Assembly (NCBI RefSeq): GCF_000315915.1
Contig: NC_020187.1
Coordinates: 124,001-188,000 of the forward strand
Origin: Henningerozyma blattae CBS 6284
Taxonomy: Eukaryota > Ascomycota > Saccharomycetes > Saccharomycetales > Saccharomycetaceae
Direction of reading: 5' to 3'
DNA length: 64,000 nt
A model generated the notes under the pieces. That model worked only from the letters and a program-made list of their open reading frames with translations. It did not search any database and was not told the DNA's origin. Shown here piece by piece: positions 35,005 to 48,041 of the stretch. A program made the translations under genes and the position numbers. The first letter of the stretch is position 1, and every line of letters starts with the position of its first letter.

Positions 35005-37899
35005 CTAATATTGCTTATCAGTTTTATTAGTGACAGGAAGTTCAGAATACTTTCTATTCTTCATATTGCTAAATTTTTGGATATTTGACATCTTATCAAT
35101 GATACGATGTCTTGATTTAATTGCATTTTCAGTAACGTCAGAGAAATCACGATGACCCTTACCAAATTCTAAAAAGAAATAGAAAACAGCACAACAAACT
35201 AATACCGCCGTAGGCATTGTTAAAGCAATATACCACCACTTTGCGCCATGCAAACCAGCATCCTCCAATTGCAGTTGTTCCTTTGTCTTCTTAAATACAC
35301 GTGCCCCAACTAATATTCTTAATAAAATTCCGTTTTCCAATGGATTGAACTCATTATCTGGGATATTACTTGGTTGAATCGATAGGACAATTTTACGTTC
35401 ATATTCATCCTGTAGCCATTCTTCAGCAATTTCAATTGGGAAGATACCACTATCATTGTCTAACCATTCAGATGAGAAAAAGGTTGCAGGGATATCCCTC
35501 TTGACTAATCCAATATTTTTCAGGTCTTTATCCACATTATCTTTCTCCTTATGTTCATCTTCTTCAACATCTTGGATAATATCTTGGATAAACTCACGCT
35601 TGTCTTTATGTTTACCAGCTTCAACAGCTTGGATGATGTCTTGGATAAAGTCACGTTTGTCCTTGTGCTTACCAGCTTCAACGGCTTGTATAATATCTTG
35701 AATAAAATCACGCTTGTCCTTTTGTTCGCCTTCTTCAACGTCTTGGATGATATCTTGGATAAAGTCACGTTTACCCTTATGTTTACCAGCTTCAACAGCT
35801 TGAATTATATCTTGGATGAAGTTACGTTTATCCTTATGTTCTCCTTCTTCAACATCCTGGATGATATCTTGGATAAAGTCACGTTTACCCTTATGTTTAC
35901 CAGCTTCAACAGCTTGAATTATATCTTGGATGAAGTTACGCTTATCCTTATGTTCTCCTTCTTCAACATCCTGGATGATATCTTGGATAAAATCACGCTT
36001 GTCTTTGTGCTTACCAGCTTCAACGGCTTGGATAATGTCTTCGATAAACTCGCGCTTACCTTTATCCTTACCAGCTTCAACAGCTTGAACTATATCTTGG
36101 ATGAAATCACGCTTATCTTTGTGTTCGCCTTCCTCAACATCTTGGATAATGTCTTGAATGAAGTCACGCTTGTCTTTGTGTTCGCCTTCCTCAACATCCT
36201 GGATGATATCTTGGATAAAATCACGCTTGTCTTTATGTTTACCAGCTTCAACGGCTTGTATAATATCTTGAATAAAATCACGCTTGTCCTTTTGTTCGCC
36301 TTCTTCAACGTCTTGGATGATATCTTGGATAAAGTCACGTTTACCCTTATGTTTACCAGCTTCAACAGCTTGAATTATATCTTGGATGAAGTTACGTTTA
36401 TCCTTATGTTCTCCTTCTTCAACATCCTGGATGATGTCTTGGATAAAATCACGCTTGTCTTTGTGTTCACTTTCTTCAACATCCTGGATGATATCTTGGA
36501 TAAAATCACACTTGTCATTGTGTTTACCAGCTTCAACGGCTTGGATAATGTCTTCGATAAACTCGCGCTTACCTTTATCCTTACCAGCTTCAACAGCTTG
36601 AACTATATCTTGGATGAAATCACGCTTATCTTTGTGTTCGCCTTCCTCAACATCTTGGATAATGTCTTGAATGAAGTCACGCTTGTCTTTGTGTTTACCA
36701 GCTTCAACAGCTTGGATGATGTCTTGGATAAAGTCACGTTTGTCCTTGTGCTTACCAGCTTCAACGGCTTGTATAATATCTTGAATAAAATCACGCTTGT
36801 CCTTTTGTTCGCCTTCTTCAACGTCTTGGATGATATCTTGGATAAAGTCACGTTTACCCTTATGTTTACCAGCTTCAACAGCTTGAATTATATCTTGGAT
36901 AAAGTCACGTTTGTCTTTTTGTTCACTTGCTTCAGCATCTTGAATAATATCTTGTATAAAGTCACGTTTGTCCTTGTGTTTACCAGCTTCAACAGCTTGA
37001 ATAATGTCTTGAATAAAATCACGCTTACCTTTATTTTTACCAGCTTCAACAGCTTGGATAATATCTTGAATAAAGTCACGCATATCCATATTTTCGCCTT
37101 CTTCGAAGTCTTCTGCTGTGTCGTGACGCTTCAAAACTGCAATATCTTCTAGGCTTTCATGAAGCTTCTCCTTTGTCCTTTGTTCATCGTTTTCAATATC
37201 ATTTGTAATATCATCTATTAGATCACGCTTAAAAAGGCCCTTATCTTTAATTTTTTCTTTAACATATGATAAGTGGATACGAACCTTATCGATATCTTTC
37301 TCAGTCAATTCGTTCTTGAAAAATTTTGTATACCAAGAAACAAAATAAGTCTTACCAACTTTCCATTCACTATTTTCATTTGGAGTGCAAAATGGTTCAC
37401 TTGAGCCAGATTTAGAGCCACCCTTTTTAAAATAACGTTCAGGCGTACATCTAATAATTGGGTTCAAGCTAATATATGTATCGTCTTCTGGAATCATAAC
37501 ATCTTCTTCATAAACATCACCAGGGTTCATATTATGTGCCTTCAGCTCTTCATAAGAATAAGTACGTACGGATGCTGTTTGGAAATATGTTGAATAGTCT
37601 GGCTTGGCTTTTTTAGTATGTCCATTTTTCAATTCAGGCTTGATAGTTTGTGGTGTACCATCTTTTTTTAGAGAAACCCATGGTTCCAAAGGGTTAGGTG
37701 GATCTTCAGGTTTACCACTAAATACGACACCACCAATTACTGTTGGAGTAACTATCTCTACCTTAGTGCCATAAATTGTTCTAACCCAAGGTTTTGGTTG
37801 TTCAGTAGTGTCTAATTTTTCCTTTGGCTCAACAACAGGTTTATAAGCGAAGGCTGTCCCAAACAAAAGGGCAGATGCCATGGAATACGAGACTTTCAT
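35005..37899 (-). CDS. PSG1: Psg1-like Golgi type I membrane protein with a 27-unit Kex2-site repeat array
   Basis: 964 residues, against about 390 in S. cerevisiae Psg1. Order: signal peptide (1-18, MKVSYSMASALLFGTAFA); conserved luminal domain (WVRTIYGTKVEIVTPTVIGG, PWVSLKKDGTPQTIKPELKN, KKAKPDYSTYFQTASVRTYS); a dibasic-rich stretch (LFKRD, VLKRH); the repeat array at 274-786; a final LVKRD; a second luminal part; a transmembrane helix (WWYIALTMPTAVLVCCAVFYF region) and a basic cytosolic tail. In S. cerevisiae Psg1 is cut by Kex2 and stabilises the proton pump Pma1 in the Golgi. Gene order (YKL075C, PSG1, SMY1, TEF4) supports the orthology. All extra length is in the array. Confidence 0.88.
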   Translation of the reverse strand: MKVSYSMASALLFGTAFAYKPVVEPKEKLDTTEQPKPWVRTIYGTKVEIVTPTVIGGVVFSGKPEDPPNPLEPWVSLKKDGTPQTIKPELKNGHTKKAKPDYSTYFQTASVRTYSYEELKAHNMNPGDVYEEDVMIPEDDTYISLNPIIRCTPERYFKKGGSKSGSSEPFCTPNENSEWKVGKTYFVSWYTKFFKNELTEKDIDKVRIHLSYVKEKIKDKGLFKRDLIDDITNDIENDEQRTKEKLHESLEDIAVLKRHDTAEDFEEGENMDMRDFIQDIIQAVEAGKNKGKRDFIQDIIQAVEAGKHKDKRDFIQDIIQDAEASEQKDKRDFIQDIIQAVEAGKHKGKRDFIQDIIQDVEEGEQKDKRDFIQDIIQAVEAGKHKDKRDFIQDIIQAVEAGKHKDKRDFIQDIIQDVEEGEHKDKRDFIQDIVQAVEAGKDKGKREFIEDIIQAVEAGKHNDKCDFIQDIIQDVEESEHKDKRDFIQDIIQDVEEGEHKDKRNFIQDIIQAVEAGKHKGKRDFIQDIIQDVEEGEQKDKRDFIQDIIQAVEAGKHKDKRDFIQDIIQDVEEGEHKDKRDFIQDIIQDVEEGEHKDKRDFIQDIVQAVEAGKDKGKREFIEDIIQAVEAGKHKDKRDFIQDIIQDVEEGEHKDKRNFIQDIIQAVEAGKHKGKRDFIQDIIQDVEEGEHKDKRNFIQDIIQAVEAGKHKGKRDFIQDIIQDVEEGEQKDKRDFIQDIIQAVEAGKHKDKRDFIQDIIQAVEAGKHKDKREFIQDIIQDVEEDEHKEKDNVDKDLKNIGLVKRDIPATFFSSEWLDNDSGIFPIEIAEEWLQDEYERKIVLSIQPSNIPDNEFNPLENGILLRILVGARVFKKTKEQLQLEDAGLHGAKWWYIALTMPTAVLVCCAVFYFFLEFGKGHRDFSDVTENAIKSRHRIIDKMSNIQKFSNMKNRKYSELPVTNKTDKQY
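35542..37080 (-). repeat. 27 tandem 57-bp repeats inside PSG1 encoding 19-residue units joined by Lys-Arg
   Basis: Each unit reads R-[D/E/N]-F-I-[Q/E]-D-I-[I/V]-Q-x-x-E-x-x-x-x-[D/N/G/E]-K. Two main types alternate irregularly: an A type (QAVEAGKHKDK or GKHKGK ends) and a D type (QDVEEGEHKDK or GEQKDK ends). 25 of 26 junctions are Lys-Arg, a Kex2 site; one is Lys-Cys (unit 10 to 11). F, I, I/V and V/A fall on one helical face, so the units would form short amphipathic helices. Blocks of several units recur, showing expansion by unequal exchange. Because 57 is a multiple of three, other frames also stay open across the array. Confidence 0.95.
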
Positions 37900-44443: not shown

Positions 44444-45970
44444 TTATTTTAAGATCTTACCGTCAACAATTTCCTTACCTTCACCGTTGACCATAACTGG
44501 CTTGTCCCAAGCCCACATGTTGTTGATGAATTCTTTATCTTCTTCCTTAGTTGGGTCCAACTTTGTGTAAGCGTAAGATTCCCAATCTGGGGCAACGTTG
44601 AAAGCTGGTTCATGTTCTTGACCTCTGATCATGACAGCACCAATGATACCGTTGTTGTTGTTTTCACCGTAGACAGTCATACAACCAAACATGTACTTAG
44701 TAGAAGCAGACAATCTGTTGAAGAAACCACCGATCAAGTTATTGGACATGAAGGTTAAAGTCAATTCGTCGTTGTATTTGTAGTCAACTCTCCAGATGGA
44801 GTATTCTTCGGCGTTGTAATGTTTCCAGAACCATGGCAAAGCAACTGGTCTGGTATCTTCGTTAGAGTATTGTCTCTTCCATTCGTCCAAGACGAAAGTT
44901 GGTCTACCTAAAGCTTCTAATGGGTGCTTTGGCTTTCTTTCTGGAGCTGGAGCAGCTTCAGCAGCTGGCTTTTCAGCCTTCTTTTCAGCCTTCTTTTCAG
45001 CTTTTGGTTTTTCAGCCTTCTTTTCCTTCTTTGGTGGGACAAAAACTAAATCTTGCTTCATGTACTCAAAGTTGGCAAATTGAGCTTTCAAAATCTTGGA
45101 GGAAATAACAGTTTTAAACCATCTAGTAATAGCTGGGTATTTTTTAGAATAAGCTGGACCGTAAACTTTACCAAAAATGATTGAAACAGCCGTAACACCG
45201 AAGATATCAGCTAGAGAGATATGTTCAGTAGCAAAATAAGTATGAGTTGTTAATCTTTCTTCAATATAATCAGAATATTGATCAACATGAGCCTTGTGGA
45301 AATCCAAGCTTTTCTTATTGAATTGGAAAACACCAATTTGAATTAACCAAACACTCACGGCAGAAGTGAAGAAATCTTGGTTAAAGAAAGAAGCCCATCT
45401 TAAAATTTGAGATTTTTCAGCCGGGGTGGTACCAGCCAAGATAGCTTGAGTCTTTTCATCAGCAAAAGAGGTTACTATTTAAATTTTTTCTTTTTCTTTT
45501 TTTTTTTTTTGTTGTAGTCAGAACAAAAAATAAAAACAAACAAACTAGTATTGTTAGTAAATGATTATTTTGAAAGCAATTGATTGAAACTGAAATAATA
45601 ATTTGGAAGACGCTAAAATTTAAGATTTACAATTCCGAACCAGATGTGGATCAAATGCCATCAGATAAGGGTAATGGTAAAAATAAACACTAGACGCCCT
45701 GTGAATTATGCAATTAAACCTAAAGTGTTACTAAATTAGTAGTAAAAAATTAAGGTACATACAATAATAAGCAATAGAAATAGCTTCAGTTAATTTAAAA
45801 CCCTTAGGACCTAGAAATGCTGGGACTTTCTTTAATGGGAAGTTCTTGGCAAAATTAGCTTCATCATTGGTTGTTTTAACGATAGAAATATCCAAATTCA
45901 AATAAGAGATCAAAGCCTCATTAGCAATGGTTCTTGGAGAATTATTGGTATATAAAGTACCTTGGGACAT
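44444..45970 (-). CDS. TEF4: Translation elongation factor eEF1B gamma, tandem copy 1 (spliced)
   Basis: Two exons on the minus strand: 45763-45970 (208 bp) and 44444-45474 (1031 bp), joining in frame to 412 residues, the length of S. cerevisiae Tef4. The intron (45475-45762) has donor GTATGT, branch point TACTAAC (complement of 45553-45559) and acceptor TAG. The protein has an N-terminal glutathione-transferase-like domain, a Lys/Ala/Glu-rich linker and the EF1G domain (HPLEALGRPTFVLDEWKRQY onward). It scaffolds the eEF1A nucleotide-exchange complex. The GST half differs clearly from copy 2, while the last 612 bp are almost identical. Its intronic snoRNA is decayed. Confidence 0.95.
45621..45690 (-). 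pseudogene. Decayed snR38 copy in the intron of TEF4 copy 1
   Basis: This intron segment aligns with the snR38 region of copy 2 (shared GATTTACAATTC and TCAGA..AGGG blocks). The internal D' box CTGA survives (complement of 45661-45664). The guide, however, is altered (AAGGGTAATGG where copy 2 has CAGGGATAACTG), no box C is found (TCATCAT is missing), and the terminal D box position reads TTAAG. I infer loss of the snoRNA after gene duplication. Confidence 0.7.
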
Positions 45971-46516: not shown

Positions 46517-48041
46517 TTATTTTAAGACCTTACCGTCAACAATTTCCTTACCTTCACCGTTGACCATAACTGGCTTGTCCCAAGCCCACATGTTGTTGAT
46601 GAATTCTTTATCTTCTTCCTTAGTTGGGTCCAACTTTGTGTAAGCGTAAGATTCCCAATCTGGGGCAACGTTGAAAGCTGGTTCATGTTCTTGACCTCTG
46701 ATCATGACAGCACCAATGATACCGTTGTTGTTGTTTTCACCGTAGACAGTCATACAACCAAACATGTACTTAGTAGAAGCAGACAATCTGTTGAAGAAAC
46801 CACCGATCAAGTTATTGGACATGAAGGTTAAAGTCAATTCGTCGTTGTATTTGTAGTCAACTCTCCAGATGGAGTATTCTTCGGCGTTGTAATGTTTCCA
46901 GAACCATGGCAAAGCAACTGGTCTGGTATCTTCGTTAGAGTATTGTCTCTTCCATTCGTCCAAGACGAAAGTTGGTCTACCTAAAGCTTCTAATGGGTGC
47001 TTTGGCTTCTTTTCTGGAGCTGGAGCAGCTTCAGCAGCTGGCTTTTCAGCCTTCTTTTCAGCCTTCTTTTCAGCTTTTGGTTTTTCAGCCTTCTTTTCCT
47101 TCTTTGGTGGGACAAAAACTAAATCTTGTTTCAAGAATTCAAAGTTAGTGAATTTAGACTTCAATGGAGCAGAAGCAATGATAGTCTTGAACCATCTGGT
47201 AATAGCTGGGAATTTCTTGGCGAAATCTGGACCGTAAACTTTACCGAAAAGGGTGGAGAAAGTAGCAGAAGCAACCATATCGGCTAAAGAAACGTGTTCG
47301 GTAGCAAGGTAAGTATGGGTGGATAATCTTTCTTCAACAAAGGTGGCGTATTTATCGACATTAGCTTTGAAGTCATCCAAAGCCTTCTTGTTGAATTGGT
47401 TCTTACCAATTAAGATTAACCAAGCACCAACAGCAGCAGATGAGAAATCTTGGTTGAAGAAGGCAACCCATCTTAAGATTTGAGATTTTTCAGCTTGAGT
47501 GGCACCGGCCAAGATAGCTTGAGTCTTTTCATCAGCAAAAGAGATCACTATACAGAAATTAATTATTTGCAATATTGCATTGTGGTGAAAATTGTTAGTA
47601 AAAAAAAAAGTTGATTTTAACACAATTAACATTTCTTGTAAATTAATAAAATATTCTCAGATTTACAATTCTCGACATATGTGAGTTACATGTTTTTTTT
47701 TAAATTTCCTATTCAGACAGGGATAACTGTAAAATAAAAATTGTTTTCATCATTTTAAAATATATTAAATTACTCGAAAGGATAAAAAATAAAAAATAAA
47801 AAATAAAAAATTGAAAAATTGAAAATAACATACAATGATAAGCGATGGCAATGGATTCTGGTAATTTAAAACCCTTTGGACCCAAGAAAGATGGGACTTT
47901 CTTCAATGGGAAGTTCTTGGCGAATTCAGCTTGAGCAGTTTCAACGTTAACGATGGAAACATCCAAGTTTAAATAGGAAACCAAAGCTTCAACAGCAGTG
48001 GATCTTGGAGATTGGCCGACATACAAAGTACCTTGGGACAT
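46517..48041 (-). CDS. TEF4: Translation elongation factor eEF1B gamma, tandem copy 2 (spliced, hosts snR38)
   Basis: Exons 47834-48041 (208 bp) and 46517-47547 (1031 bp) join in frame to 412 residues. The intron 47548-47833 has donor GTATGT, TACTAAC (complement of 47594-47600) and acceptor TAG. An unspliced reading through the intron is possible on paper but would replace the conserved start MSQGTLYVGQSPRS, so it is rejected. Exon lengths equal those of copy 1. Because its intron keeps snR38, as in S. cerevisiae TEF4, this is the better candidate for the ancestral gene. The upstream region has a Reb1 site and a long A-run. Both copies use codons typical of highly expressed genes. Confidence 0.96.
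47653..47758 (-). ncRNA. snR38: C/D-box snoRNA snR38 (intron-encoded)
   Basis: On the minus strand: box C ATGATGA (complement of 47747-47753), then an antisense element ending at D' box CTGA (47713-47716), then D box CTGA (47657-47660). C-to-D span is 97 nt, matching the roughly 95-nt snR38. The plus strand 47717-47729 reads ACAGGGATAACTG, identical to the conserved 25S rRNA stretch, so the RNA is antisense to it. Counting five bases from D' places the 2'-O-methylation on the middle G of GGG, consistent with Gm2815 guided by snR38 in S. cerevisiae. Outer ends are approximate. Confidence 0.92.

Follow-up and report, generated by a model that had tools for sequence, protein, structure and literature searches.

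A 27-unit repeat array with Lys-Arg junctions at the conserved Kex2 site of a PSG1 gene copy in Henningerozyma blattae

The window analysed here is a 64,000-nucleotide stretch of the genome of Henningerozyma blattae CBS 6284, which we take to be the yeast formerly named Tetrapisispora blattae; the assembly is 14.04 Mb in 10 contigs. The minus strand carries at 35005-37899 a single open frame of 964 amino acids, which is intact along the whole of an internal tandem array (Table 1). The protein scores 154.3 bits with the Psg1 profile PF14610 (cut-off 30.1), the match being split in two by the array, and judged by this match it is a member of the Psg1 family. An earlier note on this DNA had called the gene a PSG1 orthologue and given its protein a C-terminal membrane helix. 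The identity stands, with the correction that the genome has a second PSG1; the gene described here is referred to below as the array copy. The helix is borne out as well: Kyte-Doolittle windows of 19 residues exceed 1.6 only at starts 888-895 in the whole protein, and the hydrophobic stretch at 888-913 coincides with a helix at 886-912 in the AlphaFold model. At the N-terminus, the best 11-residue hydropathy window has a value of 1.69 and starts at residue 7, within the presumed signal peptide. A PDB search for the fold of the Psg1 domain gave no matches at E 0.001 or better.

Table 1. Features of the array copy of PSG1 (positions are those of the window, residues those of the 964-residue protein).
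Feature	Positions	Strand	Remarks
PSG1 array copy, 964-aa ORF plus stop codon	35005..37899	-	PF14610, 154.3 bits; tree sister P0001
Presumed signal peptide, about residues 1-18	37846..37899	-	Hydrophobic N-terminus; model helix 2-12; cleavage point by eye
Psg1-N' lumenal part, residues 19-225	37225..37845	-	Terminates in Kex2 site LFKR
Insert, 576 aa, residues 226-801	35497..37224	-	At conserved KR/D site
Leader 33-mer, residues 226-258	37126..37224	-	Diverged unit plus 14 residues; ends VLKR
Truncated unit, 16 residues, 259-274	37078..37125	-	Ends MR, not KR
Tandem array, 27 x 57 nt, residues 275-787	35539..37077	-	
Unit 10	36508..36564	-	Ends Lys-Cys; sole KR loss among units 1-26; sole Lys 16 (P4) change
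Tail 33-mer, residues 769-801	35497..35595	-	Unit 27 plus 14 residues; ends LVKR ahead of DIPATFF
Psg1-C', residues 802-964	35008..35496	-	Begins DIPATFFSSEW; membrane helix about 886-912

Several other matches and frames at the locus were set aside. Pfam matches inside the array to ThiD2 (above its cut-off), PDEase_I and AAA_16 were judged to be chance matches arising from repetitive helices. An antisense frame of 533 codons over the array (35551-37152, plus strand) was rejected as a gene and taken as an artefact of the repeat codon pattern; its residues vary freely because the third positions of the sense strand are its first codon positions. The tail of the protein (residues 913-964) lacks, by eye, the motifs KRR and KKxxKxx, which have been proposed as retrieval motifs of S. 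cerevisiae Psg1 (PMC5607100).

The array is made of 27 tandem units, each exactly 57 nucleotides or 19 residues long with zero indels, and takes up 513 of the 964 residues (53% of the protein). Tandem Repeats Finder agrees, reporting a period of 57, 26.9 copies, 79% matches and 0% indels. Lys-Arg stands at 25 of the 26 junctions within the array. Two types of unit can be told apart: 15 units have A9, A12 and K14 (type A), 11 have D9, E12 and E14 (type B), and one is mixed. The earlier note had claimed all of this, namely the 27 units of 19 residues, the 25 Lys-Arg junctions at Kex2-like spacing and the two unit types, and the counts agree with it; its array span of 35542-37080 had the right length (27 x 57) and lay one codon off. 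The exception among the junctions is unit 10, which ends in KC; for the KR loss and the Lys 16 change to fall in the same unit, the probability by chance is about 1 in 26. Unit 27 ends in KEKD, and the following KR comes 14 residues further on. Types A and B alternate at 19 of the 26 junctions (P 0.019), which may only reflect duplication of AB pairs. A whole-genome search for a second array-like peptide gene, with the array as query, matched this locus alone.

At the DNA level 20 of the 27 units are distinct, and identical units fall into the sets 5=14=24, 13=21=23, 6=25, 8=17 and 9=18. The longest exact repeat in the array is 209 bp, and a tandem array with exact repeats of that length could in principle be an assembly artefact in its copy number or its presence. 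The number of distinct units and the intact frame argue otherwise, and we consider an artefact very improbable: the presence of the array is hardly in doubt, while its exact number may be.

The array sits inside a larger insert. This was placed with an alignment of the window protein and 120 listed homologues out of 142 matched, the second H. blattae copy among them. The insert starts right after one KR and finishes with another, at the one Kex2 site that is conserved in Psg1. When it is removed, the array copy reads KDKGLFKR/DIPATFFSSEW, as its relatives do; the flanking sequence, LFKR before and LVKR/DIPATFF after, puts the Kex2-site position of Psg1 in this protein too. Because the edges of the insert make up a normal KR/D site, complete cleavage would leave both Psg1 halves with ordinary ends. 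All 28 of the [KR]R sites of the array copy lie at the edges of the insert or within it, a count that leaves out KK pairs (a lesser Kex2 site), which are present elsewhere in the protein by eye.

This arrangement can be compared with S. cerevisiae Psg1 (Ykl077w, P0025), which shares the domain, the signal sequence, the single C-terminal helix and the Kex2-site position, but has one dibasic site in its linker and no insert. According to PMC5607100, seemingly the sole paper on Psg1 processing found in the literature search, Kex2 cleavage of S. cerevisiae Psg1 gives two stable products, and uncut protein is seen only when KEX2 is missing. The same paper records no physical interaction seen with Pma1, so the word "chaperone" used for Psg1 in the earlier note was too strong. 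In a model of the array-free relative P0001 (mean pLDDT 80.4, with 59 of the 120 homologues in its alignment), the Kex2 site is at residues 227-228, between lumenal strands 208-215 and 233-236, in a block with a pLDDT of 57. From this model it is plausible that the Kex2 site of Psg1 lies in an exposed loop.

The array is absent from all 120 listed homologues (of 142 matches), including the nearest, P0001, so that cross-species conservation of the units is not seen; the array was either gained in the H. blattae lineage or lost in P0001. An array-free query set against partners of about 250-790 amino acids gave, among the 120 listed of 142 matches, none longer than 510 amino acids, and the first 273 residues as query against partners of 530-1687 amino acids gave only P0121. 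This protein of Candida verbasci (798 amino acids) has Sam37/Tom37 and Psg1 domains in one chain according to precomputed domains. It was left out of the alignment because two genes have probably been joined in its model, echoing a former adjacency of SAM37 and PSG1.

The second PSG1 gene (TBLA_0H02540, P0054) lies beside SAM37 at 600146-600772 of contig C8. It is array-free and has a single KR site; the reading frame on C8 corresponds, by eye, to the C-terminal 267 residues of P0054. A PSG1 tree was built from 65 rows, made up of 64 of the 120 listed homologues and the window protein minus its insert. The array copy pairs with P0001 (support 100/100), and this pair is nested with Vanderwaltozyma polyspora, Tetrapisispora phaffii and P0018 (100/98). 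The C8 copy falls outside that group on a long branch, which the tree leaves at an open fork. Path lengths measured from this shared fork are about 0.83 (0.2 + 0.42 + 0.21) for the array copy and 1.05 for the C8 copy. With so small a difference, the idea that the array copy clearly evolves more slowly than the C8 gene was given up. Since the array copy and P0001 split, the change has been 0.21 in the array copy against 0.66 in P0001. The array copy has SEN15, ArgJ and kinesin genes as neighbours, and the C8 copy has Tom37/Sam37. In S. cerevisiae, SEN15, SAM37, RNA14 and ARG7 stand in one run on chromosome XIII, with PSG1, DHR2 and SMY1 on chromosome XI. Set against this order, the neighbours suggest that the two H. 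blattae loci stem from the whole-genome duplication and have since lost complementary sets of genes, and the C8 gene is probably the duplication partner of the array copy.

The borders of the insert give some indication of how it grew. The leader and tail 33-mers, aligned end to end, are identical at 12 of 33 residues, which none of 5000 shuffles equalled; for their last 14 residues alone, 40 of 5000 shuffles were as good. Residues 1-19 of the leader match the type B unit better than any of 5000 shuffles. For residues 259-274, the shuffles as good numbered 0 of 5000 against type B and 38 of 5000 against type A. The earlier note had proposed that the existing Kex2 region of Psg1 was amplified. 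The relatives speak against this: they go straight from KR to DIPATFF or nearly so, which suggests that amplification acted on a segment newly arisen at the Kex2 site. The simplest history we can infer starts with the origin of a 33-residue segment bounded by two KR sites, which was duplicated before its first 19 residues were amplified. The sets of identical units show that exchange between units followed.

The units are under strong constraint. Between them pS is 0.683, near saturation, pN is 0.085 and dN/dS is 0.050, where the near-saturated dS makes for a rough estimate. The ratio is 0.045 within type A, 0.030 within type B and 0.055 among the 20 distinct units; for A against B over all units, dS is outside the range of the correction. 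By position, pN/pS is 0.039 for unit codons 1-8 and 0.093 for codons 18-19, and across the 19 codons the third position varies in 17, the first in seven and the second in six. F2, I3, D5, I6, Q8, E11 and K18 are invariant in all 27 units, each with synonymous variants. Neutral evolution was simulated along a UPGMA tree joining the units, with four mutation settings and 200 runs for each, and none of the 800 runs reached a pN/pS as low as the observed 0.125 (minimum 0.24). Some of these simulations also kept 25-26 of the 26 KR junctions, and so KR conservation taken alone is weak evidence of selection. For scale, pairs of repeats in human proteins have a median dN/dS of 0.52 (PMC5120217). The five copies of the alpha-factor core in the same genome, located by exact protein match, have a pS of 0.365 and a pN of 0. 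A fixed-versus-segregating test for selected divergence between types A and B was not significant (P 0.28-0.56). Altogether selection appears to keep the unit sequence almost unchanged. A low dN/dS would also follow from a structural role of the units or a role inside the Golgi.

These values bear on whether the array is a neutral or selfish expansion, one that is tolerated because Kex2 removes it and the second PSG1 covers the function. Clean excision would make the insert cheap, block duplications are visible in the two triplets of identical units, a second PSG1 copy is present, and the listed relatives lack the array. But a dN/dS of 0.05, never matched under neutrality in the simulations, is hard to reconcile with such an expansion, and the Psg1 part of the protein is not decaying, having changed less than P0001 since their split; against the C8 copy the difference in path length is small. 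This explanation, which the earlier note had left open, is thus disfavoured, and we hold it to be improbable.

Cutting the sequence in silico at each KR gives 27 products, of which 23 have 17 residues once the basic end is removed and four have 31-36. The earlier note's "about 25" amphipathic peptides was right about amphipathicity and short on the count. The predicted 17-residue products follow the form DFIQDIIQ(A/D)VE(A/E)G(K/E)HKD, with variants, and have net charges of 0 to -6; an example is DFIQDIIQAVEAGKHKD. The helical hydrophobic moment of unit residues 1-12 is above that of shuffles (P 0.012 for type A and 0.0036 for type B), and the products are predicted to form helices that are amphipathic, mostly acidic and divided into two classes by charge. 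AlphaFold was used to model the full-length protein (49 rows; mean pLDDT 57.3, 10-residue blocks of the array between 33 and 71); in this model residues 1-10 are helical in all 27 units and the turn falls mostly at 12-17. K18 (24 of 27 units) and R19 (27 of 27) are placed at the beginning of the following helix and not in a loop. At this low confidence, the model of the array speaks neither for nor against cutting.

The genome has one match to a kexin P-domain gene. Junctions were scored with our own sums of published Kex2 matrix values (PMC2515848, Table 1). The sums are 2.49-2.92 for the array junctions, 2.44-2.50 for the alpha-factor sites of the same genome, and 2.19-3.50 for native Psg1 sites in the 57 of 121 homologues caught by the search pattern. 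Asp is at P3 in 18 of the 25 KR junctions, and in that matrix Asp at P3 scores low, at 0.27.

The alpha-factor precursor (C2:1220177, five units) is like the array in having KR junctions and cores that encode the same protein sequence with synonymous differences. It differs in having no membrane anchor or second domain, and in its EA/DA spacers, which the array lacks. Spacers of this kind are of the Ste13 type.

From these results we think it probable, with room for doubt, that in the array copy a conserved Golgi protein houses a repeat precursor processed by Kex2. The signal peptide would bring the protein into the ER and the C-terminal helix would anchor it, as its sequence suggests. In the Golgi, Kex2 would cleave at up to 28 KR sites, all bounding the insert or inside it, and would release Psg1-N' and Psg1-C' with ends as in other yeasts, together with the 27 products between them. 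Trimming of basic residues is the Kex1 step, and it would yield the 17-residue and longer peptides predicted above. These would be expected to leave the cell with secretory cargo. Since selection preserves the unit sequence, what counts for the cell is probably the peptides themselves and not only the added linker length; the case for their secretion and function comes from this signature of selection.

The units may instead act within the Golgi. As acidic helices, cleaved or not, they could bind Psg1 or its partners or cargo, or their many sites could serve as a decoy by which Kex2 is delayed or occupied. Selection would then be on helices and sites and not on a secreted signal, and the low dN/dS fits this too. 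The two products of S. cerevisiae Psg1 are found in the Golgi, the ER and COPI structures (PMC5607100), and the linkers of other yeasts could also point to such a role. Among the 120 listed homologues, the linker has one [KR]R site in 83, two in 36 and three in one. The 37 with two or three dibasic sites nearly always have them around a short acidic peptide, and of the 38 peptides between such sites (median 12.5 residues) 35 are negatively charged, which could mean a linker role. The named holders of multi-site linkers include Metschnikowia, Scheffersomyces, Spathaspora and Candida dubliniensis. These acidic peptides are, however, not similar to the array unit: the median shuffle P is 0.48 (n=38, of which three have only 2-4 residues, so that their P values mean little; one of these three, in P0066, owes its existence to a chance KRKGMKKR). 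Homology between them and the unit was therefore dropped as unsupported, and their resemblance to it seems to be one of composition alone. A linker or decoy should also not need F2, I3, D5, I6 and Q8 to be kept while synonymous sites are nearly saturated. We regard action within the Golgi as rather unlikely. As a separate observation, 34 of the 41 homologues P0080-P0120 have two or three dibasic sites, in nearly every case around a short acidic peptide, and several named yeasts among these 41 belong to the CUG clade.

The reading of the array copy as a secreted-peptide precursor invites comparison with the Kex2-processed repeat proteins of fungi (KEPs), as described in PMC6339444 and PMC7329392. 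A hydrophobic N-terminus, at least three near-identical motifs between KR sites and a share above 15% of the protein are common to both, and the array copy differs in having its array inside a conserved, membrane-anchored Golgi protein. It likely works like a KEP, as far as sequence can indicate. Le Marquer 2019 (PMC6339444) asked for motifs covering at least 15% of the protein, against 53% here, and for proteins not located in the membrane, which the hydropathy at 888-913 and the model helix at 886-912 contradict for the array copy. That first KEP survey removed membrane-located proteins with a TMHMM filter, and so its pipeline should pass over the array copy. A number of 27 repeats is high for a KEP; the largest numbers in that survey are 129 and 38. 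Umemura 2020 (PMC7329392) looked for at least three tandem repeats of at least 8 amino acids between Kex2 sites, none longer than 100, which the array has, and for a SignalP signal peptide, for which the array copy offers the hydrophobic N-terminus seen by hydropathy. Kex2 likewise releases several peptides from the single precursor Ece1 of Candida albicans, but these are mostly not repeats of a single unit (PMC7329392). The literature search, which covered papers apart from their supplements (the table of Umemura's 7878 precursors being one of these), found no mention of this array or of Psg1 linker peptides. That table may list the array copy.

A broader reading, which we put forward as doubtful, is that budding yeasts in general use Psg1 as a concealed peptide precursor: many of them would excise one short acidic peptide at its Kex2 site, and in H. 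blattae the same slot would have become a 27-fold array of a selected, secreted amphipathic peptide of two classes. If so, one cleavage would both mature a Golgi trafficking factor and emit, in constant ratio to it, a peptide that acts as a signal or on membranes. Should the array copy itself be a peptide precursor, it would be a case of such a precursor being born inside a housekeeping secretory protein, at a pre-existing protease site from which inserts of whatever length can be removed with little harm to the host protein. Precursors of this class would be invisible to surveys that drop membrane proteins, and the question would arise of what role Psg1 linker peptides have in other yeasts.

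Elsewhere in the window, an elongation factor 1-gamma (TEF4-like) gene is duplicated in tandem on the minus strand, at 44444-45061 and 46517-47632, with 89% identity over 1041 bp and another piece at 78% over 217 bp. Broken frames here suggest introns.
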